Below are positions 1 through 64,000 of a stretch of 64,000 nt of DNA, piece by piece. The notes under the pieces were generated by a model, which had not been told where the DNA came from, made no database searches, and worked only from the letters and a program-made list of their open reading frames with translations. Positions within the stretch are counted from its first letter, which is position 1; the number at the start of each line of letters is the position of its first letter. The stretch comes from Eunapius fragilis (lineage: Eukaryota > Porifera > Demospongiae > Spongillida > Spongillidae), in contig OY811985.1 of assembly GCA_963681505.1 (NCBI GenBank), positions 3,895,271-3,959,270 on the forward strand, in the 5' to 3' direction. The position numbers and the translations under genes are program-made.

Positions 1-1084
1 CCTCAAGCTTCTCAGCTTATACAGAGCTGCAAAAGCTATAGACACAGAAGGTGAAGTACACAGAGGCCCAGGATGAACACCTCACATTAGATGAAAAAGA
101 AAAGCCAGTCTGCGAAGAAAGTAAACAAGTTAGACAAACAACTAACCATTGTGACACATTTAGGAGAGAGAAATACATGTAGCTCATGACAAAAAAGTGG
201 AATTATGAAGAACGTTTGTTCAAGTACTGGACAGAGCACTACAGAGCAAACATGAACACATGATGCAATTCAATGAAGTAGCACAAGAGAAGTGTGCAGC
301 TATCATCGGCACTGTAACTGAGACAATGTAGAAATTTAGTACAGCATTCTCTCTACTTACAACATATACAGGGTGGATACAGGCAGGAGAAGACCCCTTT
401 CATACAAGGCTCCTCCCCCCCCCCCCCCTTTTTTTGTATTGGGCCATAAGTGGACAGCACCCCCTCTCCCCACTTCTCATATCGGGCCTTAAGCAGACAG
501 CACCCCACTTTTCACATTGGGCCTGACTCCCTCACTGAAATCCCCCCCTTTTCAAAAATCCTGTATCCGCCCCTCATATATGACCAACTGTTCATTGATG
601 AAATGCCAGTGAATTTGGTGGGGATTGATTAATAACCAACACTTGACTTAGTCTACCACAGGACATGCTACAACACAATAAAAATGCACCACACAGTCCT
701 ACTGGGGCAGGGTTTGGCCTCCTTGGGACCAAGGAGCAGAGTCTATCCATGCAAGGTTACCATTCAATGCGTGACAAGTGAAAGACCATAACACCTCAGA
801 ATGTGGCAGCTCTTCCTTCCCAGGCCAAGCAAACAAAAAATGCAATCGTACCACCATGATTCCAATACATTTGCACACTACTTCAAGCGTGTCTAGTATA
901 CCACCCAATCAATATGGCAAAGTATCTATTCTACATTTTGTAAGTACCTTGTGTCTTCATTACGTTTCTGCTTTCGGGCTGCCGGCAAAATTGTTCCATC
1001 TTGAATCAAGCGTTTCGAAGTTAAATGGTCCTTCCCCAAAGTAGCCGCTTTCTTCAACACCATATCAGCAAGAAGTCGGATGTG

Positions 1085-1316
1085 CGTGACAATGAAGCAT
1101 GCGATGGTGTCGTATTCTCTCTGCTGGGGTATGAGGTGGAGGTTACCACTCTACCACGCAATACCACCACTGCCATATCGGTAGTAGACAAGGATTCAAA
1201 TGAATGACATAGTTATCATCAAACAAATTGTCGATCGGACCCAGCAGCTGCCATTGGTAGGAGGGACGGCCTTGCTCATAACAGTGCAGCAGTTGACAGG
1301 GCAATTGGCCTAGGGG
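1085..1316 (+). pseudogene. decayed sixth copy of the receptor's Cys domain (domain 0)
   Basis: Translation gives NEACDGVVFSLLGYEVEV, then TTLPRNTTTAISVVDKD, and after a one-base frame change RTQQLPLVGGTALLITVQQL. Together these line up with the domain of the downstream receptor (ACDEIDCSVQGY, LLPCNSPPAIRLTVND, SRQVPLLGGAVTLLVTVDQL). Two domain cysteines are replaced (VDC to VVF, LPC to LPR), an extra base near 1204-1206 breaks the frame, and a stop follows at about 1315. It was probably an exon of the same gene that has died. It has no counterpart upstream of the second receptor copy, because the shared sequence begins at about 1497. Homology is by eye but extends over the whole domain. Confidence 0.65.
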
Positions 1317-1539
1317 TATGGTCTGTTTGAGCATTCCCATGAATAGCGATGTAGCAATAATATACCCCTCCCCTCCCCCCACACACACCAGGTTGACCTT
1401 CAGAGTCCTCTTGGAACATCAACTTTGATCCTATACACCACAATAAACCAATTAACATCACCAACTATGGCCCCACCCACCAATGTGAGAGTCACTGCTG
1501 ATACTGTCTGTTTGTCTTTACAGAAGATCATTTTTGTAG

Positions 1540-4500
1540 CCACACCCTCTGGGACTTCCCCTGGCACCACGTGCAATGCGCTCAGTGGGATTGCCACCTC
1601 CCAAAGGGCCTGTTCCACCAACCCCGCCTGCGATGAGATAGACTGCTCCGTCCAGGGTTACACAGCGGCCATGGCTCTGTTACCATGCAACAGCCCCCCT
1701 GCCATCAGGCTGACCGTCAATGACAGCAGTGGGGTCACCCTGTATTCACAGACACTGTCCCAGTCCCGTCAGGTGCCCTTGCTGGGAGGGGCGGTGACCC
1801 TACTGGTCACAGTGGACCAGCTGGACAGTGCATTAGGCGTTCAGGTTAGTGTGCCACCATCCATTCAAAAAAAAAAGAAAAATGGAGGTTCACACCTGGT
1901 GACATGCTAATTCTTACCATCAACATTGCAGCTTGACCTGACCACATTGTTTGGTACTGGTACCATAGTCCCTTACACTGTGGTACCCATCAACACCTCT
2001 AGCTGCCCTCGAACCCAAGGTACCAAGCACTTATTGCACTTGTGCGTCATGTGACCTTCCCCTCCTGTAAGCCCCATCACCTCCCCAGCTGAGACAGCCA
2101 CCACCTGTAGTGCCCTGTCTGGTATTGCATCATCCAACCCCACCTGCCTGACAAACGAGGCTTGTGATTCACTGACCTGCTCAGTCCTGGGACTGTCCAC
2201 AGGGTTCACCGTGCTACCCTGTAACTCTCCACCGGCTATTGCTGTCTCCATGAATGACAGCAATGGAACTTTGCTGTTCTCCCGGACGCTTAGCCAATCC
2301 CAATTGGTGCCCCTCTTTGGAGGTGCATTGACACTGGTCATTACAGTGGACCAGTTACCTAGCTCACTGGGCCTAGAGGTAACCCTTTTGCCTAATGTAG
2401 CCCAGATGGTGTCTAAATGTTCCCTGCTGTGAAACGTGTATGTCCAGGTGGATGCTGTTTCAGTATTTGGTGGCAGTGTAAACATTGTTCCTTATACGGT
2501 GATTCCCCTGAACACCTCTTACTGTGGACCAACTCAAGGTACCCTCTTTTGAAACAAGTATGTGTGTGTTACAAAAACATGATATTCAGAATTCAGTAAA
2601 TGCACCTTTTAATGTCGTACAGTACACACACTCACGAACACACACACATGCACAACACATGAACACACTCACAGTATGTGGTTCACATGCACATGGATGC
2701 ATCCATATTCATCCACTTGCTCTATCTCTCCCTAGTTACTCCCTCCACTATGCCTCTGCCTACCACCACTTGTAATGCCCTCAATACCATTCCTGCCGCT
2801 GGTCAGGGCTGTTCAGTCACCTCTTCGTGTGATGAAGTAGACTGTACCTTCCTGGGCTACTCCATGGGGTTCATTGTCTTGCCCTGTAACTCACCTCCGG
2901 CTGTTGGCATCATTGTCAACAGCACCAGAAACAATACTCTGTTCTACCAGGTGATATCCCAGTCCCAGCAGATCCCCTTGTTTGGAGTAATAACTCTGGA
3001 CGTCACTGTGATGCAGCTGACAAATGCTTTGGGACTGAAGGTTAGCTGTTCTAATTATCAGCACAAATCATGAAGCCTTCCCTTCCTTGTGCAGGTTGAT
3101 GTGATCCCCCTACCAGGTACCAGGGTCAACGTGATTCCCTATACTGTAATTCCTCTGAACACCTCTAACTGTGGTCCCACTGGAGGTTTGTTGTTACCTT
3201 AGCGACAGAGCATGGTGTACATGTGATCTGAGCACTCATCACTTTCCAGCTCCTCCCACTTCATCCCCGCCCACAACGACATGTGGGGCTCTGAATACCA
3301 TTGCTGCAGCCAACCAGGCCTGCTCTCCAACAACAGACTGCGAGGAGGTGGACTGCTCCTACCTGAACTACACCATTGCTGTGGCAGTAGTGCCCTGCAG
3401 TACCCCACCTGGTGTGAAGGTGACGGTCTCTGACCCCCGGGGACTGCCACTGTATTCCCAACTGCTCACCCAGTCACAGAATGTGACCATTGTTGGAGGT
3501 CTGATGACCCTTCGTGCGAGAGTAGACCAGTTTAATAATTCACTTGGAGTAAAGGTTAGTTTAATGCTGGTCTATTTGCTACACCCTCTGCTACATCCCT
3601 CTGCTACACTCTTGATCGGCTACACTCTGTTATACTCCCTTTTACACCCCTCTGCTACACCCTTGATCAGCTACACCCTATGTTACACTCCCTGTTACAC
3701 CCCTCAGCTACACCCTCGATCAGCTACACCCTATGTTATACTCCCTGTTACACCCCTCTGCTACACCCCTTGATCGACTACACCATATGTTACACCCCTC
3801 TGCTACACCCTTGATCGGCTACACCATATGTTACACCCCTCTGCTACACCCTTGATCGGCTACACCCTATGTTACACCCTCTGCTACACCCCTCTGCTGC
3901 ACCCTTGATCTGCCACACCTTTTGCTACAACCTTGGCTACACCTTCTCATTGCTGGGCTGTGACCTTCCTCTACCCATCAGGTGGATGTTTATTCTCCTC
4001 TTGGAGCAGCCAATGTGGTACCGTATACAGTAATTCCCCTCAACACCTCCAACTGTGTTTACAACTCCACCCAAGGCTAGTATAAACAAATATTATTCGT
4101 TGTGGTCACAGCTCACATGAGCTCCACAGCTCCACAACGCATCCTTAATCATGGTCCCCACCATCTTCCCCCCCCCCACTTCCAGCTCCACCCACCCCCC
4201 TCCCAGACACCTGCAATGCCCTCAGAAGCATAGCTTCTGCTGGCCAGTCCTGCTCTGCCACTGCTGCCTGTGATGGGGTGGACTGCCTCTATGCAAGCTA
4301 CCGTCTCAGCATGAGGCTGCTTCCATGCCAGACCCCTCCCAGCGTCAGGCTCTCAGCGTACGAACAGACAACGGGCAGATTGCTCTTTGATCAGACCGTG
4401 TCACAGTCCCAGCAGATATCGGTTGGTTCATTTGCCACACTGGATGTGACTATGACACAAATGGACAGTGCCTTAGGGCTCAAGGTACTGGTCGACTCTT

Positions 4501-5846
4501 GTCTTGATGGCTGCATGGCTTGGCTGCCTGTTAACCCCCCTTCTCTACATACACATGAAGGTTGATTTGGTCTCTCCGGTTTCTAGAGTTAACCTCATTC
4601 CTTTCACGGTAATTCCCATCAGCACAGCTGGTTGTAATGCCACCATTCGTCCAGGTATGTGGTGCCATTAATGATGATGTCATTGTTTTTATTTTTAAAT
4701 TCTGGCCTAGTGACTACTCTGTCACCACAAGGTATGATGGTATGGTTGCACATGTGGAATGTGTGATTGGTTGGTATGGCCACTCTTACATCTAATCATG
4801 GTGTTGACATTGTTTATGTTGGAGTGAAGCCGTGTGCAATCGGGGGAATGTGCCTGATCACTGTGTTTCAGCAAAATTACATTATATGATTGATGAGGAC
4901 ACTGAAATTATAACATAATGCTCATTCATATGTCATCATCTGTGCTTGAGTAGGAAAGCCTACTTTTGAAACCATTAGCTGCCTTTCCAGTTCCTATATG
5001 GCAAGTTTGTTTCCACAACTGTACCGATGAAATAGGAAATGCTTTTGATGTGCTTGTCAAACCCAGAAATATAAGCATCTAAATGCTCAGTCAGCAGCAT
5101 GCTCCCAGACCTTGAGGTCAAAACCTAGCAGTAACTGTTGGGCATTGGGCTCTAACCAGTGGCGTAGCCAGGGTAATATTGATGGTAGGGCACGCAATAT
5201 TACTATGAGCCGCTGTACTGAAATTTGAACGTCGCGACTACCATATGTGTCGAGCCTGTGCTAATGTTTTATTATTGTTACTGCAGGATGAGATTATTAT
5301 GCTCGGTTGGTAGGGCCTAGGCCCTACCGTAGCTACGCCACTGCTCTAACCTTAATACAGTGGGTTACAAGTACATTTAGTTTGTGGCCATTTTGTTTTG
5401 CAGGTTTGCAGGTTTGATTCCTAGACTTGTGTCGCCTTGTTTGCTCACTGGTACAAATTCTTTTGTCTTAAATATCTTTAGGGTCATCATCTTTTTCCGT
5501 TCCTAGCAACCCCTCTCCCCTGCCAGAAAATACAACTGAAAGTAAAATTCCAACTATCTTCTCCCTTGTTGCTCTTAACTCTCATATACTTTCTATACCC
5601 TCCCTCATTCCTCTCCACCTTCTCTCTACCTCCCTTACAGATGCATCATTTGAACATGACTCACATCTGGGTGTTGTTGTCGGGGTGCCATTGGGTGTCA
5701 TTGTTACCCTACTCGTGGCATCAGCCTTGGCTCTGGTGGGTGTGGCCATCAGAAGGCATTATCGCAAGATAAAGGCAGGGTCGTATAGGCTTATGGAGAT
5801 GACTGATGCCATGAATAATGACCCTGCAGAGGCTGACAGTGACTAG
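1540..5846 (+). CDS. five-domain Cys-rich type I membrane receptor, copy 1 (5' end not found)
   Basis: Exons: 1540-1844, 1932-2019, 2072(or 2089)-2378, 2448-2538, 2736-3040, 3095-3185, 3250-3554, 3982-4075, 4186-4484, 4561-4654, 5482-5541, 5641-5846 (TAG 5844-5846). Five modules each use two exons: a long one (~100 aa, phase 1 in, 0 out) and a short one (~30 aa, phase 0 in, 1 out). The long exon carries TTCxAL, a Cys pair ending in CD/EE-V-DC, LPCxSPP, LSQSQ and VTVDQL..LGL. The short exon carries VNVIPYTVIPLNTSxC. Six cysteines are conserved. A linker (PSNPSPLPENTTE) precedes one TM helix (GVVVGVPLGVIVTLLVASAL), RRHYRK and a short acidic tail. No signal-peptide exon was recognised upstream. 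Exon 2a is one base short next to its first acceptor; using CCCCAG at 2083-2088 restores the frame. I do not recognise the family. A surface receptor or adhesion protein is inferred. Confidence 0.8.
3572..3935 (+). repeat. intronic minisatellite (CTACACCC-rich)
   Basis: Imperfect tandem units built on CTACACCCCTCTGCTACACC and TTGATCGGCTACACC fill most of the intron between exons 4a and 4b of receptor copy 1. The same array is present at 62086-62525 in copy 2. Its open reading in one frame is a repeat artefact. Confidence 0.85.
4076..4185 (+). other. GC-AG intron in receptor copy 1
   Basis: The exon ending CACCCAAG at 4075 is followed by GCTAGT rather than GT, and the next exon starts after TTCCAG at 4185. 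The reading frame is maintained (phase 1 to phase 1). The same GC donor is kept at 62676 in copy 2. Confidence 0.7.
5157..5343. mobile_element. hAT-like MITE with CAGTGGCGTAGCC ends
   Basis: The element is 187 bp, begins CAGTGGCGTAGCCAGGGTA and ends TACCGTAGCTACGCCACTG. The repeat CTCTAAC lies directly outside both ends, as expected for a hAT-type target duplication. It sits in the intron before the linker exon of receptor copy 1 and has no coding capacity. The same insertion is at 63759-63945 in copy 2, so it predates the duplication. Confidence 0.85.
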
Positions 5847-15597: not shown

Positions 15598-15720
15598 TGT
15601 GAAATACTTACTCTCGATGGCAACAGATTCAAAACAGCATGCACACTCAATCCAACATCACGCGAGTCAAATCACACACTGCACTAATATTTAGTTAATT
15701 ATTAAGTCGAGAACATCACA
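15598..15720 (-). repeat. LTR (3' LTR of the Ty3-type element)
   Basis: This 123-bp repeat begins TGTGAAATACTTACTC and ends GAGAACATCACA (TG...CA on both strands), and appears identical to 19940-20062. Outside it lies CCTCC (15593-15597), which is repeated at 20063-20067 as a 5-bp target duplication. Confidence 0.95.
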
Positions 15721-18700
15721 TCTTTTCCCCCTCTTCTCGATAACGGGCTGGTTTGCGTACTATTCTCCCACTTCGTGTGCTTGTGATATGGCGTTCATCA
15801 GGGTTCCTCTTGTGCCCATCTGTGGCAGGAACAGCAGAGGGGTTTGGGGTCCCTCCACCATTCTGTTCTTTTCCAAGAACCTCGTCACCATGGGAACCAC
15901 GTTCTTCATCATTCCTATTAGGTTCTCTTGTTTCCAAGGAAGGAACCTCTCTTGTTTCCTCTGACCGCCCACCCATTTGGGGTGATACGGGAGCAGCTCC
16001 TACCCCATTGTAAGGGATGCTCGGGAGCATAGGTGTAGGGTGGGTGGTATCGGCCTCCTGGCAAATAATGGGAACAGGAACGGGTTCTTCAGAGTCCTCC
16101 CTTGGTCCAGATACCCCCAACTGGTCACTTCCACTTCGTATCATCTGCTCTACATGCCGTTTCCACAGGTTACTTCCTCCCACCTGCACATGGTATGTTT
16201 TAGGCCCAACCTTGGCCTTCACTTGAGCTTGACACCATCTCTCAGTCCCTGGACGCCTGTAGTCACGTACCATCACCCAGTCTCCCACTTCAAAACTTCT
16301 GTCCCGTGCCGTTGCTCGTGCTTGTACCTGAACTGACTGGTTCTTGGCAACGGTTCCTGCAAGGTCTGGTGTTAGCAGATGCAAACGGCTCCTCACATCC
16401 CGGCCAATCATCAGACGCGCTGGCGACTCTTCAGTGGTTGCATGCCTGGCATTCCGATAATTCATAAGGAAACTTGCTAGTCGATGCTGGAAGGTTCGCC
16501 CATCTTTTCTTGAGGATCGCAATGCTTGTTTCAAGGTCTGCACAAAACGCTCCGCCAACCCATTAGTTGCAGGGTGATAAGGACTAGTTGTGATGTGTTT
16601 GATGTGGTTAAGACTGGTGAATCTCTCAAAAGCTTGTGAAGCAAATTGTGGGCCATTGTCAGTGACAATTTGAACAGGTATGCCCCATCTAGCAAACAAA
16701 AGCCTCAGTTCTTCGATAGTGGATTCTGCAGTTGTTTTTTCCATTGTCACTACCTCGGGCCACTTTGAATAAGCATCTACCACACAGAGAAGAGTTTTGT
16801 TCTCAAATGGACCTGCAAAATCAATATGAATTCTCTTCCCAGGCCCCTCCGGGAACTCCCATGGATGCAAGGTTGACAATTTCGGGTTTTGCTTCATTCG
16901 CTGACACCCTTGACAGGCATGTGTGACCTCTTCAATTCCCTTGTCAATGCCTGGCCACCACACATGGCTTCGTGCGAGCCCCTTCATCTTCACCACCCCC
17001 AAATGTCCGTCATGCAGCTCCTCCAGAACGCGATCCCTCAGTTTCGTTGGGATTACTACACGAATTCCCCACATGATGCAACTTTGTTCAATGGTCAACT
17101 CATGCCTCCTGTCATAGTATGGTTTCAAATCTGGACACTCCTCACACCCTTTGACAGGCCAGCCACTCAGGGTAAAATGTAATACCTTAGCCAATATGGG
17201 ATCGTTCTGAGTAGCTCCCTTCAGGGACATTGCAGTAATTGGCAGATTTTCAATCTGTTTAATGAAAAGGTTTCCCATTCCATCCTGCTCAGTGCCATCT
17301 TGTGAGGGTAACGGAAGCCGAGATAAGGCATCAGCATTTGCATGCTGAGATGTATTCCGATATTTAATTTCAAAGTCATACCCAGCGAGAAACATTGCAT
17401 ACCTTTGAAGCCTTGCTGCTGTAGTGATGCTAATACCCTTGTCTGGCCTGAAAATCACAGTTAGGGGTTGGTGGTCAGTTATCAGTGTGAAGTGTGATCC
17501 AAATAAGTACTGGTTAAACTTCTTAATTCCCCACACCAAGGCTAGTGCCTCCTTGTCAATCTGGGAATACTTCTGTTCCGTAACCGTTAATGTGCGAGAC
17601 GCAAAAGCCACCGGTCGTTCTTCACCTGTTGCTGTGATGTGGGACAACACAGCCCCCAAACCATAGGAGCTTGCATCACATGCTAGTGTCATGGGTAGAC
17701 TGGGGTCAAAATGGGCCAACACTGTGTCCGCCGTTACCACGTCCTTCACCATCTTCCAAGCCTCCTCACAAGCTTTGGTCCACGACCACTTCACATCCTT
17801 TTGTAGTAATGCATGTAAAGGGGCCAATTTGGTTGACAGGTTTGGAAGGAATTTCCGATAGTAATTAACCATTCCCAGGAAGGAACGAAGTTGAGAGACA
17901 TTCATAGGTTTGGGTGATTCTACAATGGCTTGAATCTTCTCTGTGGTCTTGTGCAACCCTTGAGCATCAATAACATGGCCACAAAACTCTATTTGTCTCC
18001 GAAAGAAAATGCTCTTCTTTTTGTTGATTGTAAGTCCATACTGGTCTAGACGCTTAAACACAGTCTCCAATAGGTGTAGATGTTCCTCCATGTTTCCTCC
18101 AGCAACTACAATGTCATCTAAGAAACACTGAACATTAGGTATTCCTTGCAATATAGTATCCATAGTTCTCTGCCAAATGGCAGGGGCTGATGCCACGCCG
18201 AAAGCCATCCGATTGAACTGAAACAGGCCCTTGTGCGTGTTCACAGTAAGCAGCCCCCTTGATTCCTCATCCAGTTCCATTTGCAAATACGCCCACTGCA
18301 AATCTATTTTGCTGAAAAGAGCTCCTTTACCCAACGCAGCAAAGATGTCATCCATTTTTGGTAATGGGTATTGATCCACTTTGAGGACTGGGTTAATGGT
18401 CATCTTAAAATCCCCACATAGGCGGATTGTCCCATTTGGTTTCGGTACCACCACAATCGGTGTTGCCCAGTCACTCCAGTCTACCCTACTAATGACCCCA
18501 TCTTTCTGTAACCGATCAAGCTCTTTCTCTACCTTCTCACGTAAGCTATATGGAATGGGTCTAGCCTTTAAAAACACAGGTTGGGCTCCCTCCTTTAGGA
18601 TCATCTTAGCCTTGATTCCGGAGACCTTGCCCAAACAATCCCTCCAGGGTTGAGGATACTTAATCTTTAAAGCTTCCAATGCTTCTTCCATTCGCTTTTC

Positions 18701-19939
18701 ATCTACCACTCTGACTGCCTTGATATCATGCCAATTTACTGAGATACTGGCTAGCCAATTCCGTCCTAACAATGGTGGTCCCCTTCCATCCACCACTATG
18801 AGAGGTAGTCTGGCATATTCTCCGTTCTTCTGCACCTTCACCACTACCTCTCCTCTTGGAGATATCTTCTCCCCAGTATACGTCCTAAGGCGTGTGGATG
18901 CTTTCTGTAAGGGTATATGCCTAAACTTCTCTTGATACATACTGAATGGCAATAAAGATACTGCAGCCCCTGTGTCTAGTTCCATTTGAACAGGTAAGCC
19001 TTCTATCAATACCCCCACCATTATAGCCTCACCACTTTTCCACTGCTCTTTAGCAGCCCTCCTCTTGTTGATGGCCTGGCCCCAGTACACCGGTACCTCT
19101 GCCTCCTCTTCATTCTCGATCGTAGCCTCACTGGATAACTCCTTCACTCTTCTATCTTTCATCTTGTCTGATCCTGAGCCTCCCATTGTTCTTTTCTTCG
19201 CCTTACATACACGTGCTATGTGCCCTTTCTTTTTGCAAAAATGGCACTGTTGGTCAATAAATGGGCAGCCATGTGCTTGATGATTTCCACCGCATCTGTA
19301 ACACCTGCCTTGTGACCTAGTAGGTATTTGGTTCACTTCCTGAGGTTCTGTTTTTACTTGGATTGTATCAGTCATTTTCATTTGACCCGCATCCTTAACC
19401 GCCACTTCTTCTGTCTCAATTATCTCCACCGCCTTCGCAAATGTAAGTTCAGCCTTAGATAGAAGACGCTTCCGAACTACTTCATCTCTGATGCCACACA
19501 CGATTCGGTCTCGCAATGCATCGTCCCACCCGGTTCCAAACTGGCAGTGCTCCGTTAACTTTTGTAAGTTAGCCACGTACTCTCGGATGGACTCGCCCTC
19601 CTTCTGGTCGCGTTTGTGGAACCGATAACGCTCCGCGATAAGTAACGGTTTCGGCGCCAAATGCTTCGTCAATAACTCAACTAACTCCTTATACGTTTTG
19701 TCTGCCGGTTTACCTGGAACAGTTAGAGCTCGCAGAAGGCCGTACGTTCTCTTGCCAATACACGCTAGAAACGCCGCTTTTTTCTGTTCTGCTCCAATTT
19801 TATTTGCGTCGAAGAAGTGTTCCAATCTCTCCATATAACTGGGCCAGTCGTCCACAGCGCCATCGAACTCTTCTACCTTTCCCACGTGAATCGCCATAGT
19901 CCGTCGCCACTATGTTAGGGATCCCACCCTCGTCGCCAC

Positions 19940-27147: not shown

Positions 27148-28793
27148 TTGATTGGTCTACAGAAATGCTATTAGTGTAGCACCATTGTGGAAGGAATTAT
27201 TTTGTTAATTAACCAGATAACTGAATCAAATCAGTATTTTACTGAAGATTTTTGCCTGGTCATCATGAAAGGCTTGAACCCGAGCAGGCAGACAAGCAGA
27301 CAAATTATCATCTTGATAAACTAGAATAGATTTTACGTTTTAATTGTGTGTTCTCAAATAAATTGGTAGTTGTAATCCACTAGCAATTAAAGTAACAACA
27401 TTTTACAACATTTTCATTCTGCAATGCCCTGGGCACTAGTAACTAATATACTGGCAACTAGGATAAGATCATTATCAAAATGCTGTGTGGTTAATTAACT
27501 GAGCACTGACAGAACAACTGCAAGAGTTCATTCATCACTCCTCCTTACATCACAACATTGCATTACGAACATAATTTCAGTGGTGAACAGCTCAGTGAAT
27601 ACCCTTCATTCCTCATAGGGTCGAGGGGGAAAGGGTTCCATCTTCGTGTGGGCATCAGGCAACGGGGGCCTGTATTCAGACTGCTGTGCAGCTGATGGCT
27701 ATGTCACCAACGTAAATACCATTCCCATTGGGTCAGCCTCCACAGATGAGACTGCTGTGTATTATGACGAGAAGTGCTCTGCAAAGATGGCCGTGGTCTT
27801 CATGTACAGCAGCACAGGTTCTGTACAAGTAGTGGTAGGTGCTACTGGGGAGGAAGAGGGGGGGGAGGAGGAGGGGATGAAGGGGCTGTATGTTAGGCTG
27901 GGATGTAGCTATACCTTTTGTGCAAGGGATGAGGGAAGAGATGAGAATGTCAACATGTTGGCTCTTACCAATTAGATTACTGTGAGGTCGGGTATAAATT
28001 TGGTGATATCACAATCATGACATTGTTGCGGTGCTACTTGCCAGTGTAATGTAAAGCCTCTAAAGAATGTACTCGTATGCAATGGCACAGTGTATGATAA
28101 TGTACTATGTACATGATATCAGGGTGGTAAGGATAATATTTTTAGTGTCAGATTACATGTAGTAACATAATTATTTGTATTTACCTCAAATAGAGCACAG
28201 CATCGACCAATGACAAATGCACGTAGTCATTCTCAGGGACTAGTGCTGCCTGTCCATTGGCTGCTGGGGTCGTCGCTCTGGCACTGGAGGCTAAGTAAGT
28301 CTCTACTCAAATACAAACCTTTGCTGTAGCCTTCAGGACTCTCCCCTACACTATGTGCAGTAACAACCTGACTTGGAGAGATGTGAAGTACCTTCTGGTG
28401 TACACCTCAAACACCACACGCTTGTCCCAGAGTTCAGGGGAGTGGTTCCTTAATGGTGGAGGCCTCTACTTCAGCCACCAGTTTGGGTTTGGTGCTATTG
28501 ATCAGAGGCTCTGGTCAACAGAGCACGGTACTGGGTCAGTGTACCGGAGCAGGTGCAGGACACCATTGTCCCCACCGGGAGCAGTGTGTAAGTTGCGTGT
28601 GCTGAGGCTACAAATGAACTGTGCAAGAGTGCATGTGTATCCTTACAAATATTGATGTATGCTGGGAATTTACCTTGGTCAAGATATTGTCATACATGGC
28701 TTGGAGTAATTACTTCTGTCTAGTCTTGGTTTACACACACTGAATGCTTTTGAGTAGCTATTAGTTATTACAGTAGGTGAAGGGTAAAAAGAT

Positions 28794-28975
28794 GTGCAAG
28801 TGTGCATGTGTGCATGTGTGTATGTGTGCATGTGTATGCATGTGTGCATGTGTGTATGTATGCATGTGTACATTTGTGCATGTGTGTTTGTGCATGTGTG
28901 CATGTGTGTATGTGCATGTGTATGCATGTGTGCATGTGTGTGTGCATTTGTGCATGTGTGCATGTGTGCATGTGG
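28794..28975 (+). repeat. TG/TGCATG-rich microsatellite in a protease intron
   Basis: Same motif family as 26862-27147, in the intron before the P-domain exon. Confidence 0.95.
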
Positions 28976-29564
28976 ACTTATGCAATCATGTTTACAGTTG
29001 ACCTTCATAGAGTGCCATCACAACCTCTGCAGGAGCTTCTCAGCCCATCTCCTTCACGTACCAAGGACCAGGTGTGGGGTACGTGGAACAGGTGTCGGCC
29101 AGAATGACCTTGAAGCCCCAGGGACTTTCCCTTGGATCTGGAAGGGGGGACATCCTCATCACCCTCCAGTCCCCATCACTGACCACCTCCACCCTCCTCT
29201 TCAAGCGTCCGTACGACAATGACAGGACTGTCGGGTACTCCAATTGGCCCCTTTGTGAATGTCCACTTCTGGGGGGAGGATTCCAGAGGGGGCTGGACCC
29301 TTACCGTACGCTACGATGGGACCAGTGGTCAGACTGTCCTCACAGGTCTGAGCGTAACCATATATGGTACTGCATCAACACCTGTGGCAGTGAGCCATAC
29401 CACGCCTGTTTCCTGTGCGAGTGGCTACTACCACAATGCCAGCACCCTGGAGTGCACGAGTTCCTGTGGCTATGCCATGAGGGATGGGTACTGCTATGAT
29501 ACAATGCAGGCGGAGGAGAGCTGTGTTCATGTGATGCTGCCCAGCGGGGGTGCAATGCAGCGAG

Positions 29565-30369: not shown

Positions 30370-33300
30370 ATGTCGTGTGAACTACAAGCATTTGACACTC
30401 TGTACAGTCTCCTGGAGGATTGCCTTACACCCGCTGATATAGCTGGTAAATGCTTCGCTAAAGGAACGATATCAATAAATGATCTTGAAGATATACGGGC
30501 AGCTAGTCCAGAGTATAAGCAGAGAGATGCCATTTTGCGTGCGGTTAGGAAGTCGGTAGCGGCTAATGTTGACCATTTCTACATATTTCTTGACCTACTA
30601 AATATGGAACCAAAATACAGCAACGTAGTGAATCAGTTAAGTAAGCATTTTGGTGTACGCACTTCTCAGTAGTCAGTGTCGTTACCACAACAGGGAAAAG
30701 TGTCCAGGAGCTGAAATCTTGTGCTGGAGGAATACCACAGAACAGCATTAATGGACAAGCTAAAGGTGTGTGGTTGGGGAAAGCTAGGGTAGTCTGTTAC
30801 TTTCAAGCATTTTTAGTGTTACGATACCAGTGCATTGCAGCAGATAGCTGATAGTACCATTTTTTGACCTGTAAAGCTTTGCCAGAGGTCAGCACATATG
30901 CTGAAAATGTGAAGGCCATATACAAGAGGACAAATGTGATAGGAGACCAATGGCTACATGTACCTGTGCAGTTCCACCACTATATCAACCTGCGTACAGT
31001 TGAGAAGATGGAAGACATTCCTCAGGAGGAGGAAGAGATGTACATCAGGGAGGCCGTGAACTTTAATATTAAACAATATGCAAAGAAGAATAAAAGGATC
31101 ATAGCAGAGATTACCTCTAGGAACACAAGGGGAAAAGGGTTAATAAAGATGGAGCAGGTGGGTATGTGCATGTTTGCGTGATGTGTGACTTGGTGTCTGA
31201 TTATACAGCACATCCCTCTACCTAGATTGGTTTTCTAGCAAATGGCGAAAAGGCCAGCTGCATCATAGTGGAAGGCACGCCTGGTATAGGGAAGTCAACA
31301 TTCTGCTGGCACCTTGGAGTCCGCTGGGCGCGAAACGAGATTCTTCTTGACTACCATCTGGTTTTCCTCCTACGCTTGAGGGATAAGAGGGTTCAGGAAG
31401 CCGAGTGTTTGTCTGACCTCTTCTACAACAAGGAACAAGAACCACATGAGCACGAGACTGTTGTTAGATGGATGAAGAAATGTGGAGGGCATGGTGTGAT
31501 GTTGGTCCTTGATGGTTTTGATGAGCTGCCCTCACACCTACAGACATCATCTATCTTTGCTGACATCATCAAAGGAGAGGTGCTTCCTAAGATGACAGTT
31601 CTGATATCAAGCCGGCCTTCAGCTAATAAAAACCTCTATCAGTTATGCCAATATCAATCACTTAAATGTCAGTACATTGAGGTGATTGGCTTTGGTAAGG
31701 AAGACATTCAGAAATATGTTGATAGTGCCCTTGAACAGCCTGAGAATAAGAAGCTAAAGGATGAGCTGAAATCCTATCTTGAAAATCATCCTCACATTCA
31801 TGGCATAATGTATGTTCCAATGAACTGTGCCATTGTTGTACAAGTCTTCAGAGATGAGATGAAGAGAAAACGTAAACCTCCTGAAACTCTGACACAAGTA
31901 TACCAATTGCTGATTGAGATTTTACTTCAGCGTCATGAGATGAAGTTAGTCAAATCTCCATCTGCACGGGGACACAATGATATTTGTACCAGTAAGTGTG
32001 AGAAAGGCACACACACACACACACAACATCCTTCCGGCTATTATGAAAAGATATATAAATTGCATCATTTGATACATTGGTACTAAGTGTTGCTGCTTAA
32101 TCTTCTAGACAATCCGCCAGTGTTCTCATGGCTTCCTGATGTCTCAGAACAAAGAATTTCACAACTCATGATAGTGGCCAAGCTAGCATACGATGGAACT
32201 AAAGAAGACCAACTGATATTTTATGAACAAAACGGAATATTAGAGACTTTAGGTAAGTGATTGTGTGTTTGTGCATGGTATGCCGCCATCCCATAGGGTA
32301 GTGTTGGGCTGCGTGAGTACTGTGACCTCACACTACAATTTATGTGTACTTTCCAGCATGGGAAGGAAAGATGAAGCAGAGGATATTTAGGGAGGCTAGA
32401 GGAGATATGCATGGAGGATAGAAGTAGTGGGTTGATATTTGGAGAAGGGAGGACATTGAAGATAGGAGGAACAGATTGTAAGAAAGAGTATTATGTATTC
32501 TTTGAGATCACATACAATGTCATTCATCCATTTTTGGTATGTATTAAGTGAAGCACATATTTAGTACGTGTACCACAGGATATGGCATGCATTATGCACT
32601 AATATGGTGTACATGCATGTGCTATTTCTTAATTTGCTGTATGCAGGACTGCTCCAAGAGGTCCCACAACTATACTTGAAGAACTCCAGATCATCAATAT
32701 CCTCGTATCACTTCCTCCATAAAACTGTACAGGAGTTCATGGCAGCTTTATATGTGTCGTCACTACCCCCTGAGAAGAGAACTGAGTTTGTTAGAATATG
32801 CTTTGGTAACAGCAACTTGAGAATGGTTATGAGGTTCGTAGCTGGTCTATGCAAGTTCCCGTCCCAAGATGACAAAGATAGTATCATAGCATTGCAGACA
32901 AGAGGCAAAGATGAATTACTTGAAAGCCTCCATTGGCTGTTTGAAGCGCATGATCCTGATCTTGTACAGAGGTGTATGCAGGGCAACAGAGAGTGGAAGC
33001 TAGCATTGTATAATCGAATATTGAGTTCATTTGACTGTTATGTTCTTGGTTACTGTATTGCAAAAAGCAGACAGCCTTGGGACATTAAACTACATTATTG
33101 CTACATCAGTGGAGAGTGTATAAAGATGCTAATGATGGTGGATCAGGGAATTGACTCTGGCTACATCAAGTCTATGGCCTTAGTGGACAATCGCCAGCTG
33201 ATTGATCAAGGAGCTATAGTGTTAGGTAAGCAGTAGAGTACATGAGCCTGGGCCATGGCCCATGGAAATTTCCTTCAAACAGTGACATAAATACCTATTG

Positions 33301-39300: not shown

Positions 39301-42300
39301 GTGATTCATTTTTTTTTGTCGTTCATTTATCCAGTAATGGCACAAAGAAATGACGAAATTTGCTTATGTGTAACTATAACAACGTTATATGTAACGATGA
39401 ACAGAGCAGCAGCTGTTCAGGCCCGCTCGGTTCTAATCCCAGCGGAGGCAACAACCTCACTTTAACATATTGTACCTTGTTTCCTTGCTTTTTGCGCCAC
39501 CAATCCTACATACTGTAGCGGCCTCATCCATTTCATTTACATAGCAGCAAGGTTACAAAGACTCACACGAATACTCACTACAGACACATATATATGTAAT
39601 CATACGCATGCGCACATAGCAATTATACAGTTTCCAATAACCGTTACACAGCTCCCCCTTTTCAAGGAGTGGGTCCACACACTTAAATATCGTCCGGTAG
39701 ACTCCATGGGTTTCCGTATCTGTCCGGCGGTCTTCTGTTCCTTGTAGATCTCCTCAATACCGGTTGCGCCTCCTCATTTGTGATCTGCCCCACTGATCTG
39801 CTTGTCTCTCTTCCCCGTCTGAGTCACTCAATACGGACAAATGATCCTCATCTCTTATTTGTTCTACGTTCCTCTCGGGTTCGGCCACCAGCCCTTGTCT
39901 TACTCTTTCTCCCCTCTCCGTGGATTCATCCACAGTATAATCCTCTTCTTCGTCGCCTTCATGATGTTCAGCGGTGTTATCCCTACTGTCTTCTTCGAAC
40001 GGCTCAGGGAGTCGCCTTCGTTCCGAGACTAACTTAGAAGGAGCAGGCTTTAATCTGTTGAAATGAACAACATACTTTTTCCTCGAGTTAGAGCAGTCAA
40101 CGATACGATAGACGCACGGGCTTACCACTTTTGTTACCTTAAATGGCCCTCGCCATGGCCTGTGGAACTTCTTGCATTTGTTCCTCGGCACGGCTGGACT
40201 GTGAAGAAATACCAAGTCATTTACCTTGTATGATGTTCCACCGCTTCCACGGCACTTTAAATCATAAACAGCCTTTTGGCGCTGCTGTTTTTTACTTGCA
40301 TATTTCTGAACCCACTGATAGCTCTGTTGCAGCCGTTCTATTAATGCAGTACTGTACTCATCCACTGACTGATACTCTGGAGTAGGAATATTGTACAACA
40401 AGTCTTCAGGCAACCGAGGGTCACGGCCGAACATAAGCTGGAATGGTGTAGTTGCTGTGGTTTCATGGGCGCTTGTTCTATAAGCAAACAAAAGTGAGGG
40501 CAGAAAAAGATCCCAGTCACGTTCCCTTTCCAGAACAGTCATGCTCAACATTTCCAGTAATGTTTTGTTAAACCGTTCTACCAACCCATCTGACTTTGAA
40601 TACACCATTTTTTTTGCATCAACTATTAACACACTGAAATTTTGTGCATGTACTACTGATACAGCTGTAGTGAGGGACATTAATAACTTGAAATACAAAT
40701 TATTCCAATAATAGGCAAAATTGATACCCAGTAAAAGCTGCATAAAAAAATAGCAGGATTTGAACCACTGCCTAGTTTTCAATATCAGTACCTAATCTAA
40801 TGTCCTTTCTGACCAGCTTGAAAAGATGCAATACATCGGAGATATGACAAGAGAATGAAAAAAGAGCTAACTAGGGATTATTTCAAACCAGTGGTGAAAA
40901 ATACAATGAAGCAAGAAGAGAATCAAATAAATAATTTGATGCAAGCTCTAAATCACTGCATCATTCCGCATGTAGCTTTAGTTATTTAATTTTTAATTGT
41001 GCCTATTCTTGTTTAAGTATTTCACCACCAATGTCCAATTTTAAAAGATAATTGTGGTGATTGATGTGCACACAGTCTTGCTAGCTGAACACCGAACTAA
41101 CATAATTATATCACTTGTAACAATGCGGATATTAATTTGTAATGAAATTAAAGTGCACACGTATACAGCATCTAATTGGTGTTCATATTTAGTGGATTTT
41201 ATTAATTTCAGTATAACTATATATCACATTGTGAGTATGGGAGTTGTATGTTAACTAGATCAAATGATATAAAATGCATTGTCAAAAAGGATGTAGCAAC
41301 ACCTAGAGCAATCAAAGTCAAGGTTATTATATATATATTTTTTGATTGAGTTCATGACACATCAAGCCATGATCGAACCTCTACTGAGGTTCATGATTCA
41401 ACGCAGTGGCATTTATGTTGAGAATTAATAAGGTCCTTGCATCACTAATACTTGTTTACTGTGGATAATATCCATACATACTAAATGAGCTGTTCCAAGT
41501 TATAGGAACGATCACTGCACTGACTTCTTCTATTACAGAGCATTACCTACTTGTATACACAGTGTACTGTGATAGCCCGTATTGTCATGTAGAATTTACT
41601 GCCATATTTTACTCAACACAGGGACAATGTTGAGAGAGAACAAGGTTCTCACATCGCTTGGGCTAGATGGATGTGAACTAAGTCCAGATGGCCTTTGTAA
41701 AGTGTTCAAAGCTGTTGGAATGAACACTAAACTGACTTCGCTTCATGTATCAAGGAACAAGTTTGATGACCAAAGTGTAGCAATTGGTAAATATAACGGT
41801 GAACAGAAAATAACTGCTGTCTCATTAATAACTATATATATGTATATGTACTGTACTCACTTCACATGTAGGAGTGTGGTGTGAATAGATGAAGGCATGT
41901 AAAGGTTTATAGTGTGTATAGTGAGATGCACTGAATTATAAAAATGTATGTCAACAGGATAGTAAAAAGAAACATTTGTTCACCACAAAATCAAGGCAAT
42001 TACATTTGCTGCAAAATGTACTGCTGTGATTACAGTGTATGGATAATAATGTTGACTTACTATGTATTGTAGTTGTCTCACCACCAAACTGTGATCACCT
42101 TCCACAGCTTGTACAATGCTTAAAGAGAACAAAGTCCTCACATTACTTAGACTTGATAGCTGTGAGTTAGGTTCAAAGGACCTTTGTGAAGTGTGCGAAG
42201 CTGTTGCAGTGAACACCAAACTGACTTCACTTGACCTATCAAAAAACAAGTTTGATGATGAAAGTATTCCTCACCTTGGTAAATATGTAACAAGTTACTG

Positions 42301-55138: not shown

Positions 55139-55409
55139 GTCTATTAACTGTTGAAGGCTGATTGATATGAAAAGGCACCTGTAAAAATTTCCAGGTAATG
55201 ACACATGCATTTGAAATGTATGTGTGTAAGAAGGAAGTTGTAAAGGACTACGGCATCTCTTAGAGTATCAAATAATTTGAAGCCTTGGGGGGAAAAAAAA
55301 CATACGTTAGGTTGCTTTTCAACAACACCGTTTGTATATATGTATGTATCGGGTATCTGTTTTGCATATATGTGCATGCATGTTAGCACGCTTGTGTTTG
55401 TGTACACAG

Positions 55410-58400
55410 GAGTGCCTTTCATTGAGACAGCATTACGAACAAGTGGACAGACTTCTGGCCCTGAATGAGTTCACAGCTCTGTATCCGCGATTAGCCAACA
55501 CAACTCTCGAAGGTCAACGAGACTCTATGCAACGCTTTCTCTGTGGAGACCTTCCTGTCAACTCGGCGGCTTTTGAGTTCCTGAACAGGAGGGTGTTCCT
55601 GGGTGATAAAACCCAACAAGGTCTGTGTGCACGTTTGTGTGTGTGTGTGTGTGTGCACACATACACACGTGCACATATGTACACACATAGCACATAAACC
55701 CTCGCACAGCGTATGTGAGCGTGTGCACTTGTTTCATGCCTGTTGGTGACGAAACTATCTGCGACACTATTGTAAAAAAAAATTTTTTTTTTAAAGCCAT
55801 GGCTACAAACATAACCTCCACCCTGCGTGCAAAGAGACAAAACGCAGCACCCACTGGTACCACTCCGCCACCGTCGACGCCCTCTCCTCGCACCGCTCCA
55901 AAGGTCCTCTACTACGCCCAGCCGGAGTTTGCCCCCCTGGCCTGGGCCATCATCCGGCGAGCCAACAGGACATTTGAGTCGGTCGAGTACATCAAGAACT
56001 GGGCAGAGCAGGTGCTGAACTGCTCGGAGTACTTCCTGGAACACTTCCCCCCGGGGAGCCCCGAGGTTGCCCAGGTGGTGCAGGTAACCCTTATCACTGT
56101 AGGATGGGCTGTGACTGGTGGTATCTTTACCTCACTGTATCACTGTAACTATATCCTCCTCCTCCCCTCCCCCTCCCCACAACATACAAACATGCGCACG
56201 CATATAAAAATGCATGCACGCTTGTACACATTAACGTGAACCTGCATGCATATATGAACACACACACACACATGCACACACACGCACACACATACACATA
56301 CACACCTGCTGATATGCACTGTAGCTTGTGAGTCTCTTCAACGACTCTCGGAGCACACAGGCCAAGCTTCTACTGGACCCTTCTAACCCCCAAAACATAT
56401 GGGTGGCAGTGGGGAATGCGGCCAATATCAGCCAGGCCGTCCTGGACACCATAGCTTCCTTCGACTGGGACATCTTCATCCCTGCCCCCAGCGAAGACCA
56501 GATGAGTGTCCTCGCCGGCAACTACACCCTCCAACATGAACTGAACATCACCACAGTAATTGGAGGTGTGGTCATCATGGAGAACTTTGAGCTGGACAGT
56601 GTGGGACAGCTGCAGAGTGTGGACATCAGGGTCAGGCTTAACTCCACCTACATCCCTGCAACGGATGTCCTGAGGCAAAGGTCAGGGGTCGAGGAAGGGT
56701 GTTGGGGGGGGGGGGGGGGGGGGGGCTGGATTAAGTGGGGTGGGGAAAGGTGGTGAGTGAGGGTCCAAATTGAAAGGAATGTAAACAGGAAAGGAGTGGG
56801 CACTTTTTATCCTTTGATAAATGCATTAAGAGGCTGTAAGGCTTAGTTGACCCGCCTCCTGAAAGGATGATAACAGCATTAATACTGCAATAAAAACTCA
56901 GTTGACCCATCCCAGAAAGGGTTTAACATGGCGATGATTCAATGGCGATATCGATCCTTTAATGTACATGTATGGTGGGTACCTGTGCATACTGTAATCA
57001 TCACCTTATGTCCCTCTTTGCCGCAATGATGCCCGTATAAACTCGGGGCTCATGTTTAATAAAATTTTCAAGGAAGGAGCATCAAAGTTGACACATGCAA
57101 TTGAAATGTTTGCATAATTAAAAATTCAGTCCATTGTAACTCCATGGTGGACACACCTGAATTTCATTGTATAAGAAGGAAGTTGTAGAGGTGCACACCC
57201 ACCAGCACTCCATACACTCAGTATGTAATGTACTGTATAGACAGCCAACATGCGCATGAGCAGGGGCCAATTATTGTAAAGGACGTGGCCCCACACCTCC
57301 TTCAGGAAAAAAGAACCTTTAAAAAAGGGAAAAAAGGAGTTCAGGCTGTTCAAATTGTTAATGATCCGCTTTGAGTCATTGTATGTCAACTGGTTTCAAA
57401 TAATGAAAAAAGCAGTGTTAGATCTGCCAGTGGTTTAGCACAATATGCTTATAAACACTCCTTTACCAACCTTATATGGCCCCTGAAGACCCATCATGTG
57501 CTCCTTCATCATCTTAGGTGCAGCTGCACTTTCATAGATTCCCACTATCATCCTTATCTATCTACAATGTAACAATGACAACACATGTAGTATACACTGC
57601 TGGGAGCTGTCTAATTTGTTCCTCAAAGGACAGAAAAATGTATGAGAACTATGGTATCTCTTAGAATATTAAATAATTTGTTAACTTGAAAGAACATGTG
57701 TTAATGGATCATTTGTATAATATGGGCCTTACCAAACGGATCTTTTTGTGTTCTGTCTTGATTTCATACTTTAAACTCCTCCTCCTCCTCCTCCTCCTCC
57801 ACCTCCTCCTCCTCCTCCTCCTCCTCCTCCCCCTCCTCCTCCTCCTCACCCTCTTCTACCCTCCTCCATCTCCCTCCCCCTCCTCCTCTTCATCCCCCCC
57901 CTTCTTCCCTCCTCCTACAGTGTGTATATCCCAGGCCCTGAGAATGGCCAGCTGAGGAGGTTGTATCTTCTTGGTGGGTTTGTGTTCCTCCAGGACATGA
58001 TGGAGAGAGCAGCCATGGAGTACATCCTGGGACACACAATGGCCTCTCCTGGTACCTACATCCACCAGATGCCATATCCTTGCTATGATAGGAACCAGTA
58101 AGAAGATGGGACTAACCCCACTCCCCTCCCCCCCCCCCCAACCTATCCAATATGGAGGAGGAGGAGTGAAGGGAAAGGGTGGGGAGGAGGAGGATGGGGG
58201 GGGGGGGGCCAGTCGGAAAGAGAGGGGTGGGGCAAGGATAGCAGGGTGAGTGGACAGAGAACTGAGTACACTGTAGATCCATGTATTTGGTTTTTTGGGT
58301 GAACACTAGATAAGCAGTGTGTGCACATGCTCCACTGTACATGTGCATGTGCCCATAAATAGGCCACAGGAAGTACAATGTAGATCCACTGTGGGGCCCC

Positions 58401-59205: not shown

Positions 59206-59246
<41 letters not shown>

Positions 59247-59619: not shown

Positions 59620-59643
59620 GTAAGTGTGGTCTTACATGTATCA

Positions 59644-59644
<1 letters not shown>

Positions 59645-59875: not shown

Positions 59876-60006
59876 AATGACAGCATGTGTGCAGGTGAGA
59901 GGAATGTGTGCATGCTTAGTATTATCATCGTGTAACCTGAGCATTTCATGGCATGTTTCATTCGTTGATACTGTCTGTTTGTCTTTACAGAAGATCATTT
60001 TTGTAG

Positions 60007-63000
60007 CCACACACTCTGGGACTTCCCCTGGCACCACGTGCGATGCACTCAGTGGGATAGCCACTTCCCAAAGGGCCTGTTCCACCAACCCCGCCTGCGA
60101 TGAGATAGACTGCTCCGTCCAGGGTTACACGGCGGCCATGGCTCTGTTGCCATGCAACAGCCCCCTGGCCATCAGGCTGACCGTCAATGACAGCAGTGGG
60201 GTCACCCTGTATTCACAGACACTGTCCCAGTCCCGTCAGGTGCCCCTGCTGGGAGGGGCGGTGACCCTACTGGTCACAGTGGACCAGCTTGATGGTGCAT
60301 TAGGCGTTCAGGTTAGTGTGCCACCATCCATTCAAAAAAAAAAAGAAAAATGGAGGCTCACACCTTGTGACATGCTAATTCTTACCGTCAACATTGCAGC
60401 TTGACCTGACCACATTGTTTGGTACTGGTACCATAGTCCCTTACACCGTGGTACCTATCAATACCTCTAGCTGCCCTCGAACCCAAGGTACCAAGCACTT
60501 ATTGCACTTGTGCATCATGTGACCTTCCCCTCCTGTTAGCCCCACCCACCTCCCCACCAGAGACAGCCACCACCTGTGGTGCCCTTTCTGGCATTGCAAC
60601 ATCAAACCCCACCTGCCTGACAAACGAGGCTTGTGATTCACTGACCTGCTCAGCCTTGGGACTGTCCACAGGGTTCACCTTGCTACCCTGTAACTCTCCA
60701 CCAGCAATTGCTGTCTCCGTGAATGACAGCAATGGAACTTTGCTGTTCTCCCGGACGCTTAGCCAATCCCAATTGGTGCCCCTCTTTGGAGGTGCATTGA
60801 CACTGGTCATTACAGTGGACCAGTTACCTAGCTCACTGAGCCTAGAGGTAACCCTTTTGCCTAATGTAGCCCAGATGGTGTCTAATGTTCCCTGCTGTGA
60901 AACGTGTATGTCCAGGTGGATGCGGTTTCAGTATTTGGTGGCAGTGTAAACATTGTTCCTTATACGGTGATTCCCCTGAACACCTCTTACTGCGGACCAA
61001 CTCAAGGTACCCTCTTTTGAAACAAGTATGTGTGTGTTACAAAAACATGATATTCAGAATTCAGTAAATGCACCTTTTAACGTTGTACAGTACACACACT
61101 CACAAACACACACACATGCACAACACATGAACACACTCACAGTATGTGGTTCATATGCACATGCACATGGATGCATCCATATTCATCCACTTGCTCTATC
61201 TCTCCCTAGTTACTCCCTCCACTACGCCTCTGCCTACCACCACTTGTAATGCCCTCAATACCATTCCTGCCGCTGGTCAGGGCTGTTCATGCAGTCACCT
61301 CTTCGTGTGATGAAGTAGACTGTACCTTCCTGGGCTACTCCACGGGGTTCATTGTCTTGCCCTGTAACTCACCTCCGGCTGTTGGCATCATTGTCAACAG
61401 CACCAGAAACAATACTCTGTTCTACCAGGTGATATCCCAGTCCCAGCAGATCCCCTTGTTTGGAGTAATAACTCTGGACGTCACTGTGGTGCAGCTGACA
61501 AATGCTTTGGGACTGAAGGTTAGCTGTTCTAATTATCAGTATAAATCATGAAGCCCCCCCCCCCCCCCCCCCCCCCCTCCTTGTGCAGGTTGATGTGATC
61601 CCCCTACCAGGTACCAGGGTCAACGTGATTCCCTATACTGTAATTCCTCTGAACACCTCTAACTGTGGTCCCACTGGAGGTTTGTTGTTACCTTAGCGAC
61701 AGAGCATGGTATGTAATCTGAGCATTCATCACTTTCCAGCTCCTCCCACTTCATCCCCGCCCACAACGACATGTGGGGCTCTGAATACCATTGCTGCAGC
61801 CAACCAGGCCTGCTCTCCAACAACAGACTGCGAGGAGGTGGACTGCTCCTACCTGAACTACACCATTGCTGTGGCAGTAGTGCCCTGCAGTACCCCACCT
61901 GGTGTGAAGGTGACGGTCTCTGACCCCCGGGGACTGCCACTGTATTCCCAACTGCTCACCCAGTCACAGAATGTGACCATTGTTGGAGGTCTGATGACCC
62001 TTCGTGCGAGAGTAGACCAGTTTAATAATTCACTTGGAGTAAAGGTTAGTTTAATGCTGGTCTATTTGCTACACCAGTTTAATAATTCACTTGGAGTAAA
62101 GGTTAGTTTAATGCTGGTCTATTTGCTACACCCTCTGCTACACCCCTCTGCTACACTCTCGATCGGCTACACTCTGTTATACTCCCTTTTACACCCCTCT
62201 GCTACACCCTTGATCAGCTACACCCTATGTTACACTCCCTGTTACACCCCTCAGCTACACCCTCGATCAGCTACACCCTATGTTATACTCCCTGTTACAC
62301 CCCTCTGCTACACCCCTTGATCGACTACACCATATGTTACACCCCTCTGCTACACCCTTGATCGGCTACACCATATGTTACACCCCTCTGCTACACCCTT
62401 GATCGGCTACACCCTATGTTGCACCCTCTGCTACACCCCTCTGCTGCACCCTTGATCGGCTACACCCTATGTTACACCCTCTGCTACACCCCTCTGCTGC
62501 ACCCTTGATCAGCTACGCCTTTTGCTACAACCTTGGCTACACCTTCTCATTGCTGGGCTGTGACCTTCCTCTACCCCTCAGGTGGATGTTTATTCTCCTC
62601 TTGGAGCAGCCAATGTGGTACCATATACAGTAATTCCCCTCAACACCTCCAACTGTGTTTACAACTCCACCCAAGGCTAGTATAAACAAATATTATTCGT
62701 TGTGGTCACAGCTCACATGAGCTCCACAGCTCCACAACGCATCCTTAATCATGGTCCCCACCATCTTCCCCCCCCCCCCACTTCCAGCTCCACCCACCCC
62801 CCTCCCAGACACCTGCAATGCCCTCAGGAGCATAGCTTCTGCTGGCCAGTCCTGCTCTGCCACTGCTGCCTGTGATGGGGTGGACTGCCTCTATGCAAGC
62901 TACCGTCTCAGCATGAGGCTGCTTCCATGCCAGACCCCTCCCAGCATCAGGCTCTCAGCGTACGAACAGACAACGGGCAGATTGCTCTTTGATCAGACCG

Positions 63001-63256
63001 TGTCACAGTCCCAGCAGATATCGGTTGGTTCATTTGCCACACTGGATGTGACTATGACACAAATGGACAGTGCCTTAGGGCTCAAGGTACTGGTCGACTC
63101 TTGTCTTGATGGCTGCATGGCTTGGCTGCCTGTTAACCCCACTTCTCTACATACACATGAAGGTTGATTTGGTCTCTCCGGTTTCTAGAGTGAACCTCAT
63201 TCCTTTCACGGTAATTCCCATCAGTACAGCTGGTTGTAATGCCACCATTTGTCCAG
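60007..63256 (+). CDS. five-domain Cys-rich membrane receptor, copy 2 (3' end beyond window)
   Basis: Exons: 60007-60311, 60400-60487, 60540-60847, 60916-61006, 61210-61518, 61589-61679, 61740-62044, 62582-62675, 62788-63086, 63163-63256. They match copy 1 exon for exon with a few percent difference. Exon 2a keeps the full reading frame after its first acceptor (APPTSPPETATTC), unlike copy 1. Exon 3a carries four extra bases (about 61289-61292, CATGCAG for CAG), which shift the frame and give a TGA soon after, before VDCTFLGYS. The linker and TM exons should lie beyond 64000. The GC donor at 62676 is kept. Either this copy is non-functional or the insertion is an assembly error. Confidence 0.75.
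62045..62130 (+). repeat. 43-bp tandem duplication at an exon edge, copy 2 only
   Basis: AGTTTAATAATTCACTTGGA...GTCTATTTGCTACACC, including the end of exon 4a and its donor, is repeated directly. There are therefore two possible GTTAGT donors (62045 and 62101). Copy 1 has one unit at 3529-3575. Confidence 0.85.
62086..62525 (+). repeat. intronic CTACACCC minisatellite, copy 2
   Basis: The same array as 3572-3935, with one or two additional units (for example around 62450-62500). Confidence 0.85.
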
Positions 63257-63758
63257 GTATGTGGTGCCATTAATGATGATGTCATTGTTTTTATTTTTAA
63301 ATTCTGGCCTAGTGACTACTCTGTCACCACAAGGTATGATGGTTTGGTTGCATGTGGAATGTGTGATTGGTTGGTATGGCCACTCTTACATCTAATCATG
63401 GTGTTGACATATTGTTTATGTTGGAGTGAAGCCGTGTGCAATCCAGGGAATGTGCCTGGTCACTGTGTTTCAGCAAAATTACATTATATGATTGATGAGG
63501 ACACTGAAATTATAACATAATGCTCATTCATATGTCATCATCTGTGTTTGAGTAGGAAAGCCTACTTTTGAAACCATTAGCTGCCTTTCCAGTTCCTATA
63601 TGGCAAGTTTGTTTCCACAACTGTACCGATAAAATAGGAAATGCTTTTGATGTGCTTGTCAAACCCAGAAATATAAGCATCTAAATGCTCAGTCAGCAGC
63701 ATGCTCCCAAACCTTGAGATCAAAACCTAGCAGTAACTGTTGGGCATTGGGCTCTAAC

Positions 63759-63945
63759 CAGTGGTGTAGCCAGGGTAATATTGATGGTAGGGCACGCAAT
63801 ATTACTATGAGCCGCTGTACTGAAATTTGAACGTCGCGACTACCATATGTGTCGAGCCTGTGCTAATGTTTTATTATTGTTACTGCAGGATGAGATTATT
63901 ATGCTCGGTTGGTAGGGCCTAGGCCCTACCGTAGCTACGCCACTG
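63759..63945. mobile_element. hAT-like MITE, duplicated copy
   Basis: Same ends and same CTCTAAC flanks as 5157-5343 (CAGTGGTGTAGCCAGGGTA ... CTACGCCACTG). It is part of the large segmental duplication. Confidence 0.85.
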
Positions 63946-64000
63946 CTCTAACCTTAATACAGTGGGTTACAAGTACATTTAGTTTGTGGCCATTTTGTTT

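Follow-up and report, generated by a model that had tools for sequence, protein, structure and literature searches.

LAMP-type glycoproteins have a glycosylated, disulfide-rich luminal part, one transmembrane (TM) helix and a short tail with a YxxPhi motif, and sponge aggregation factors, with their Calx-beta and Wreath domains, are multi-domain adhesion candidates. The N-terminal domain of FAIM (PDB 3mx7) was also counted among the closest known systems. SRCR group A domains have six cysteines and often stand in tandem, and most linked sponge SRCR genes have three exons per domain (PMC10855680). We analyzed a stretch of 64,000 nucleotides from the sponge Eunapius fragilis (contig OY811985.1, positions 3,895,271 to 3,959,270; hereafter the window), in which a gene copy at 1540-5846 (W1) encodes tandem six-cysteine modules; a second copy (W2) stands at the window's end, and the same assembly holds two complete relatives, P15 and P6. 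We see an even chance that W1 and W2 belong, as partly decayed paralogues with truncated 5' ends, to a small family of conserved genes, whose intact product would be a type I membrane glycoprotein, most likely a stiff surface adhesion or endocytic receptor with a constant ligand.

Compared with these systems, the modules of P15 and P6 resemble SRCR group A in being tandem six-cysteine domains. They differ from SRCR in their sequence motifs and in number: the module family has four loci, whereas an SRCR profile search, a method different from the module search, gave at least 162 matches in the same genome (150 of 1115 candidates scored). Expansion of a receptor domain does occur in this genome, and the module family shows nothing of the kind. 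The resemblance to LAMP lies in a predicted glycosylated and disulfide-rich outer part, one TM helix and a short tail with a putative YxxPhi motif; however, P15 and P6 have nine six-cysteine domains and a tail running well beyond the motif. Unlike aggregation factors, they have domains all of one six-cysteine type plus a TM helix.

Two complete relatives with nine modules

We searched the window's own assembly (219 Mb, 24 contigs) with protein queries of 626 and 122 residues. Each query gave 48 matches at E values of 10 or below, and these revealed modules at the four loci P15, P6, W1 and W2 and at no other, two of the four being complete; distant relatives could escape such searches. P15 (C15:3834658-3840717, minus strand) lies about 55 kb ahead of the window on the same contig, and P6 lies at C6:8752420-8761857 (plus strand). 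Each was modelled with 18 exons of identical phases, AG at 17/17 acceptors, GT at 17/17 donors and no internal stops, encoding 1281 (P15) and 1274 (P6) residues. In both proteins a hydrophobic N-terminus is followed by the nine modules, a Ser/Thr/Pro stalk, one strong TM helix close to the C-terminal end and a short tail. For P15 and P6, a hydropathy scan thus predicts a type I single-pass layout with signal peptide, one TM helix and cytoplasmic tail; no signal peptide was recognised in W1 or W2. The initial annotation had described W1 as a single-pass protein with a 31-residue tail, which agrees with its TM exon and with the helix of both relatives.

Both P15 and P6 contain 54 cysteines, that is nine times six, and 24 and 28 N-glycosylation sequons, respectively. 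Soon after the basic stop-transfer, all three available tails carry YxxPhi (KYSAM in P15, TYNAL in P6, SYRLM in W1, hence YSAM, YNAL and YRLM). Modules 3-8 are each a phase 1-0 exon A followed by a phase 0-1 exon B, as had been proposed from W1. Modules 0-2 depart from this scheme, as they have no inter-module introns and exon B is fused to the next exon A (phase 0-0); they are thus not separable symmetric units.

A conserved module order

Between P15 and P6, neither the set of nine modules nor their order differs. Leaving out the W1 rows, 16 of 18 modules had their best match at the corresponding position of the other complete gene, module 3 being the exception both ways, and positional identities ranged from 47 to 75%. 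The ratio of nonsynonymous to synonymous substitution rates (dN/dS) of P15 against P6 was 0.16 over 1059 codons; taken module by module, it lay at 0.11-0.25 for the eight of the nine that allowed a calculation. Positional pairing and this low ratio together indicate that the nine-module order predates the duplication and is under purifying selection.

The copies in the window

Coordinates of the features are collected in Table 1. The five two-exon modules of W1 (1540-4654) correspond to positions 4-8 of its nine-module relatives. The five modules first noticed are thus confirmed as such, but they are not the whole protein: a decayed module 3, with a frameshift and in-frame stops (2 TAG), stands upstream, and modules 0-2 are missing. 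No homologue of the signal peptide or of the first module was found upstream of W1 in the window or in the preceding 10 kb (L009).

The 11-exon model of W1 has AG at 11/11 acceptors and GT at 9/10 donors; the donor after 4075 is GC, and the module 5 acceptor homologous to that of P15 (exon from 2072) is out of frame, exon A of this module having a one-base deletion compared with P15. An alternative AG at 2087-2088, 17 bases further on, restores the frame. With that acceptor at 2088 and a putative 60-base stalk exon that the initial annotation had not listed, the open frame comprises 742 codons and 30 cysteines (5x6).

Matches of the W1 exons to the module profiles (E 3e-17 to 8e-50) are circular, as the profiles were built from the same five modules. 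These W1-derived profiles also find modules of P15 and P6, for example exons A of P6 modules 3-8 at E 8e-29 to 3e-41, and such matches, with the purifying selection on the modules, are the non-circular support.

We also compared W1 with P15 in bins of 75 bases. Identity was 95-100% from 1575 to 3375 and 80% at 3450, and ranged over 37-89% in the bins after 3450 with at least 20 aligned bases. Between W1 and P15, synonymous divergence (dS) was 0.06-0.10 for modules 4 and 5 and 1.25 for module 8; module 8 of W2 had 1.09. Near-identity from module 4 to mid-7 beside such divergence in module 8 indicates that an array segment moved between paralogues. One border falls at about 1533, within the intron that precedes module 4, the other at about 3480, inside a module 7 exon, and the transfer involved a segment of about 2 kb rather than single modules.

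W2 is a tandem duplicate, the match to W1 starting at 1499 in W1 and 59966 in W2, so that the period is about 58.5 kb; past the window end the duplication goes on in L012, where lengths differ. The initial annotation had reported a second copy, and W2 is this copy. However, module 6 of W2 has a 4-base frameshifting insertion near 61290, and the copy begins behind an ABC-transporter fragment. Between W1 and W2 we counted 23 synonymous and 13 nonsynonymous differences over 595 codons (dN/dS 0.17). Mismatches amounted to 42/1979 in exons and 31/1914 in introns and flanks, the exons being no more alike. We read W1 and W2 as probable decaying partial copies, W1 possibly still being expressed.

Transporter exons occupy 55311-59963, ahead of W2, and look ABCA-like by eye. 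Their last part is about 96% identical to the parent transporter region around C15:3859017 (minus strand), and this homology ends at 59963, before the modules; an in-frame fusion of transporter and modules was therefore rejected. The intron of module 7 holds minisatellite-like repeats in W1 (3577-3943) as well as in W2 (62126-62543), and in W2 the end of module 7 exon A, donor included, is also repeated.

Table 1. Positions in the window of the W1 and W2 features (all on the plus strand).
Feature	Position	Strand	Basis
Decayed module 3 of W1, two-exon remnant	1035..1448	+	tblastn match to P15 module 3 within window 1-1540 (E 1.1e-15); internal stops
Hidden Markov model (HMM) fragments of W1 module 3	1076-1201, 1203-1307, 1392-1445	+	profile matches
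Tract of paralogue transfer; identity to P15 (modules 4 to mid-7) about 95-100%	1533..3485	+	identity bins
W1 module 4 exon A (phase 1-0)	1540..1844	+	AG/GT borders; homologous to module 4 of P15 and P6
W1 module 4 exon B (phase 0-1)	1932..2019	+	module profile and exon model
W1 module 5 exon A, frame-keeping alternative acceptor	2089..2378	+	exon model
W1 module 5 exon B	2448..2538	+	module profile and exon model
W1 module 6 exon A	2736..3040	+	module profile and exon model
W1 module 6 exon B	3095..3185	+	module profile and exon model
W1 module 7 exon A; P15-like tract stops inside, about 3480	3250..3554	+	module profile, identity bins and exon model
W1 module 7 exon B; donor GC, not GT	3982..4075	+	exon model
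W1 module 8 exon A	4186..4484	+	module profile and exon model
W1 module 8 exon B	4561..4654	+	module profile and exon model
Possible 60-base stalk exon (phase 1-1), Ser/Pro/Thr-rich	5482..5541	+	AG/GT borders and open frame; putative
W1 TM exon, encoding the TM helix, a basic stop-transfer and the 31-residue tail (YRLM) up to the stop codon	5641..5846	+	exon model
W2 (modules 4-8), duplicated in tandem from 1499-5398; extends beyond the window end	59966..64000	+	sequence match

The six-cysteine module

Each module has six cysteines in about 103-130 residues, and typically opens with TTCxAL, has LPCxSPP midway and closes with VIPLNTSxC. We aligned 19 modules from both complete genes and the window and searched the domain libraries. 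Nothing credible was found in Pfam-A with the 19 modules (E 1), with four modules or with whole P15 (E 10; whole P6 was left out), the best scores being PatG_C at E 0.027 and, for whole P15, TM_ErbB1 at E 0.26. The same was true of NCBIfam with the 19 modules (BigA at E 0.019 and feoB at E 0.1, each from a single member), and of PDB sequences, queried with a single module as well as the 19-module profile (best E 0.39). The six-cysteine domain, described at first as unfamiliar, thus has no clear match to a described ectodomain family in these libraries. A single exon of a module (101 residues) was searched, as six peptide patterns that reach close relatives only, against prokaryote genomes and viral contigs; of the 182 and 22 pattern matches, respectively, none was confirmed by tblastn. 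A literature search gave no recognised paper on such a domain, which is no evidence of its being unpublished.

Two AlphaFold models of single modules were obtained, both predicted to be beta-rich with an N-terminal helix, at a mean predicted local distance difference test score (pLDDT) of 72.5 and 75.6. The order of elements is common to both up to about residue 89 and then diverges. Intron-encoded residues occupy 97-114 in the first model and 97-119 in the second, and strands 92-101 and 113-124, respectively, contain such residues; pLDDT falls below 50 at 102-122 and 92-110, hence not only in the insert.

Other features of the window were recognised by eye: NACHT/NLR-like open frames at 31226-33233, subtilisin/kexin-type proprotein convertase-like frames at 27619-29496 and, on the minus strand, two retroelement frames, one of 1397 codons with zinc knuckles, gag-pol-like (15719-19909), the other integrase-like (39757-40791). 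The NACHT-like frame and the SRCR matches are in keeping with a sponge genome.

Discussion

We considered whether the modules belong to a fast-evolving recognition receptor family, in which symmetric modules are shuffled for diversity, as the initial annotation had suggested from their capacity for gain and loss. The phase 1-1 units of modules 3-8, the tandem duplication of W1 and W2 and the near-identical tract shared by W1 and P15 are what such a family would lead one to expect, and the segment transfer is the part of that suggestion which the data bear out. However, the protein searches, which could miss distant relatives, gave four loci rather than many copies per genome, module number and order are the same in both complete genes, W1 and W2 having fewer through 5' loss and decay, and the dN/dS values, pooled and per module, show no excess of amino-acid changes between the paralogues when averaged over sites. 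We therefore regard this explanation as quite improbable. Somewhat unlikely, in our view, is that W1 is a functional shortened gene of five modules, with an unrecognised 5' exon upstream and the acceptor at 2088 replacing the broken one. Its long open frame has 30 cysteines, provided that this acceptor and the GC donor are used, and the low W1-W2 dN/dS is what a functional gene would show. Yet this needs two splice-site changes and a signal-peptide exon that was not recognised, the adjoining module 3 is decayed, and W1 and W2 are no more alike in exons than outside them; their low ratio may stem from intact donors before the transfer.

It is also rather improbable that the module represents a known ectodomain family in strongly diverged form, be it SRCR group A, Ig, LAMP or another. 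The predicted beta-rich folds and the YxxPhi tail, a LAMP feature, would fit such an origin, as would the six cysteines that SRCR group A domains have too (PMC10855680) and a similar length. The SRCR profile PF00530 is absent from the Pfam matches of the 19 modules and of P15, among which there was no immunoglobulin model either; whole P15 matched neither a LAMP luminal domain nor Calx-beta. The SRCR fold is not in the comparison lists of the two shallow module models, although such an absence does not exclude it.

Our preferred reading is that of truncated copies of a conserved receptor family. The intact protein would comprise a signal peptide, nine domains probably closed by disulfide bonds, a stalk keeping the rod of domains away from the membrane, a single TM helix and a short tail. 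At the cell surface, this rod may bind a constant ligand in adhesion or endocytosis, and the YxxPhi motif, about 9-12 residues past the helix, may recruit clathrin adaptors for internalisation.

Several points weigh against this reading. A YxxPhi motif is short and arises by chance, and three paralogous tails, one from a possible pseudogene, are thin evidence. Conservation was gauged between paralogues of one assembly; between P15 and P6, dS comes close to saturation at 1.54 (module 0 gave no computable value), and a dN/dS between paralogues averages over sites, being compatible with diversifying selection at a few sites or with polymorphism within the species. The module models come from shallow, window-only alignments, each with intron-encoded residues in a strand. 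Expression, surface location, disulfide pairing, role and ligand of the family members are predictions from sequence.

The chance is, we think, slightly short of even that the module represents a type of extracellular domain not described before, compact, beta-rich and marked by a six-cysteine pattern of its own, and that it forms a conserved adhesion or endocytic receptor of nine domains, long fixed in number and order in this lineage and missed by domain databases. If so, a conserved receptor architecture would be invisible to current domain libraries; the domain may be common yet unnamed, and the 19-module alignment provides a profile for finding it elsewhere. Moreover, a receptor gene can be repeated, symmetric and rich in cysteines and still not be hypervariable: in this family the domains are fixed in number and order, while a whole segment of them has been swapped among paralogues.
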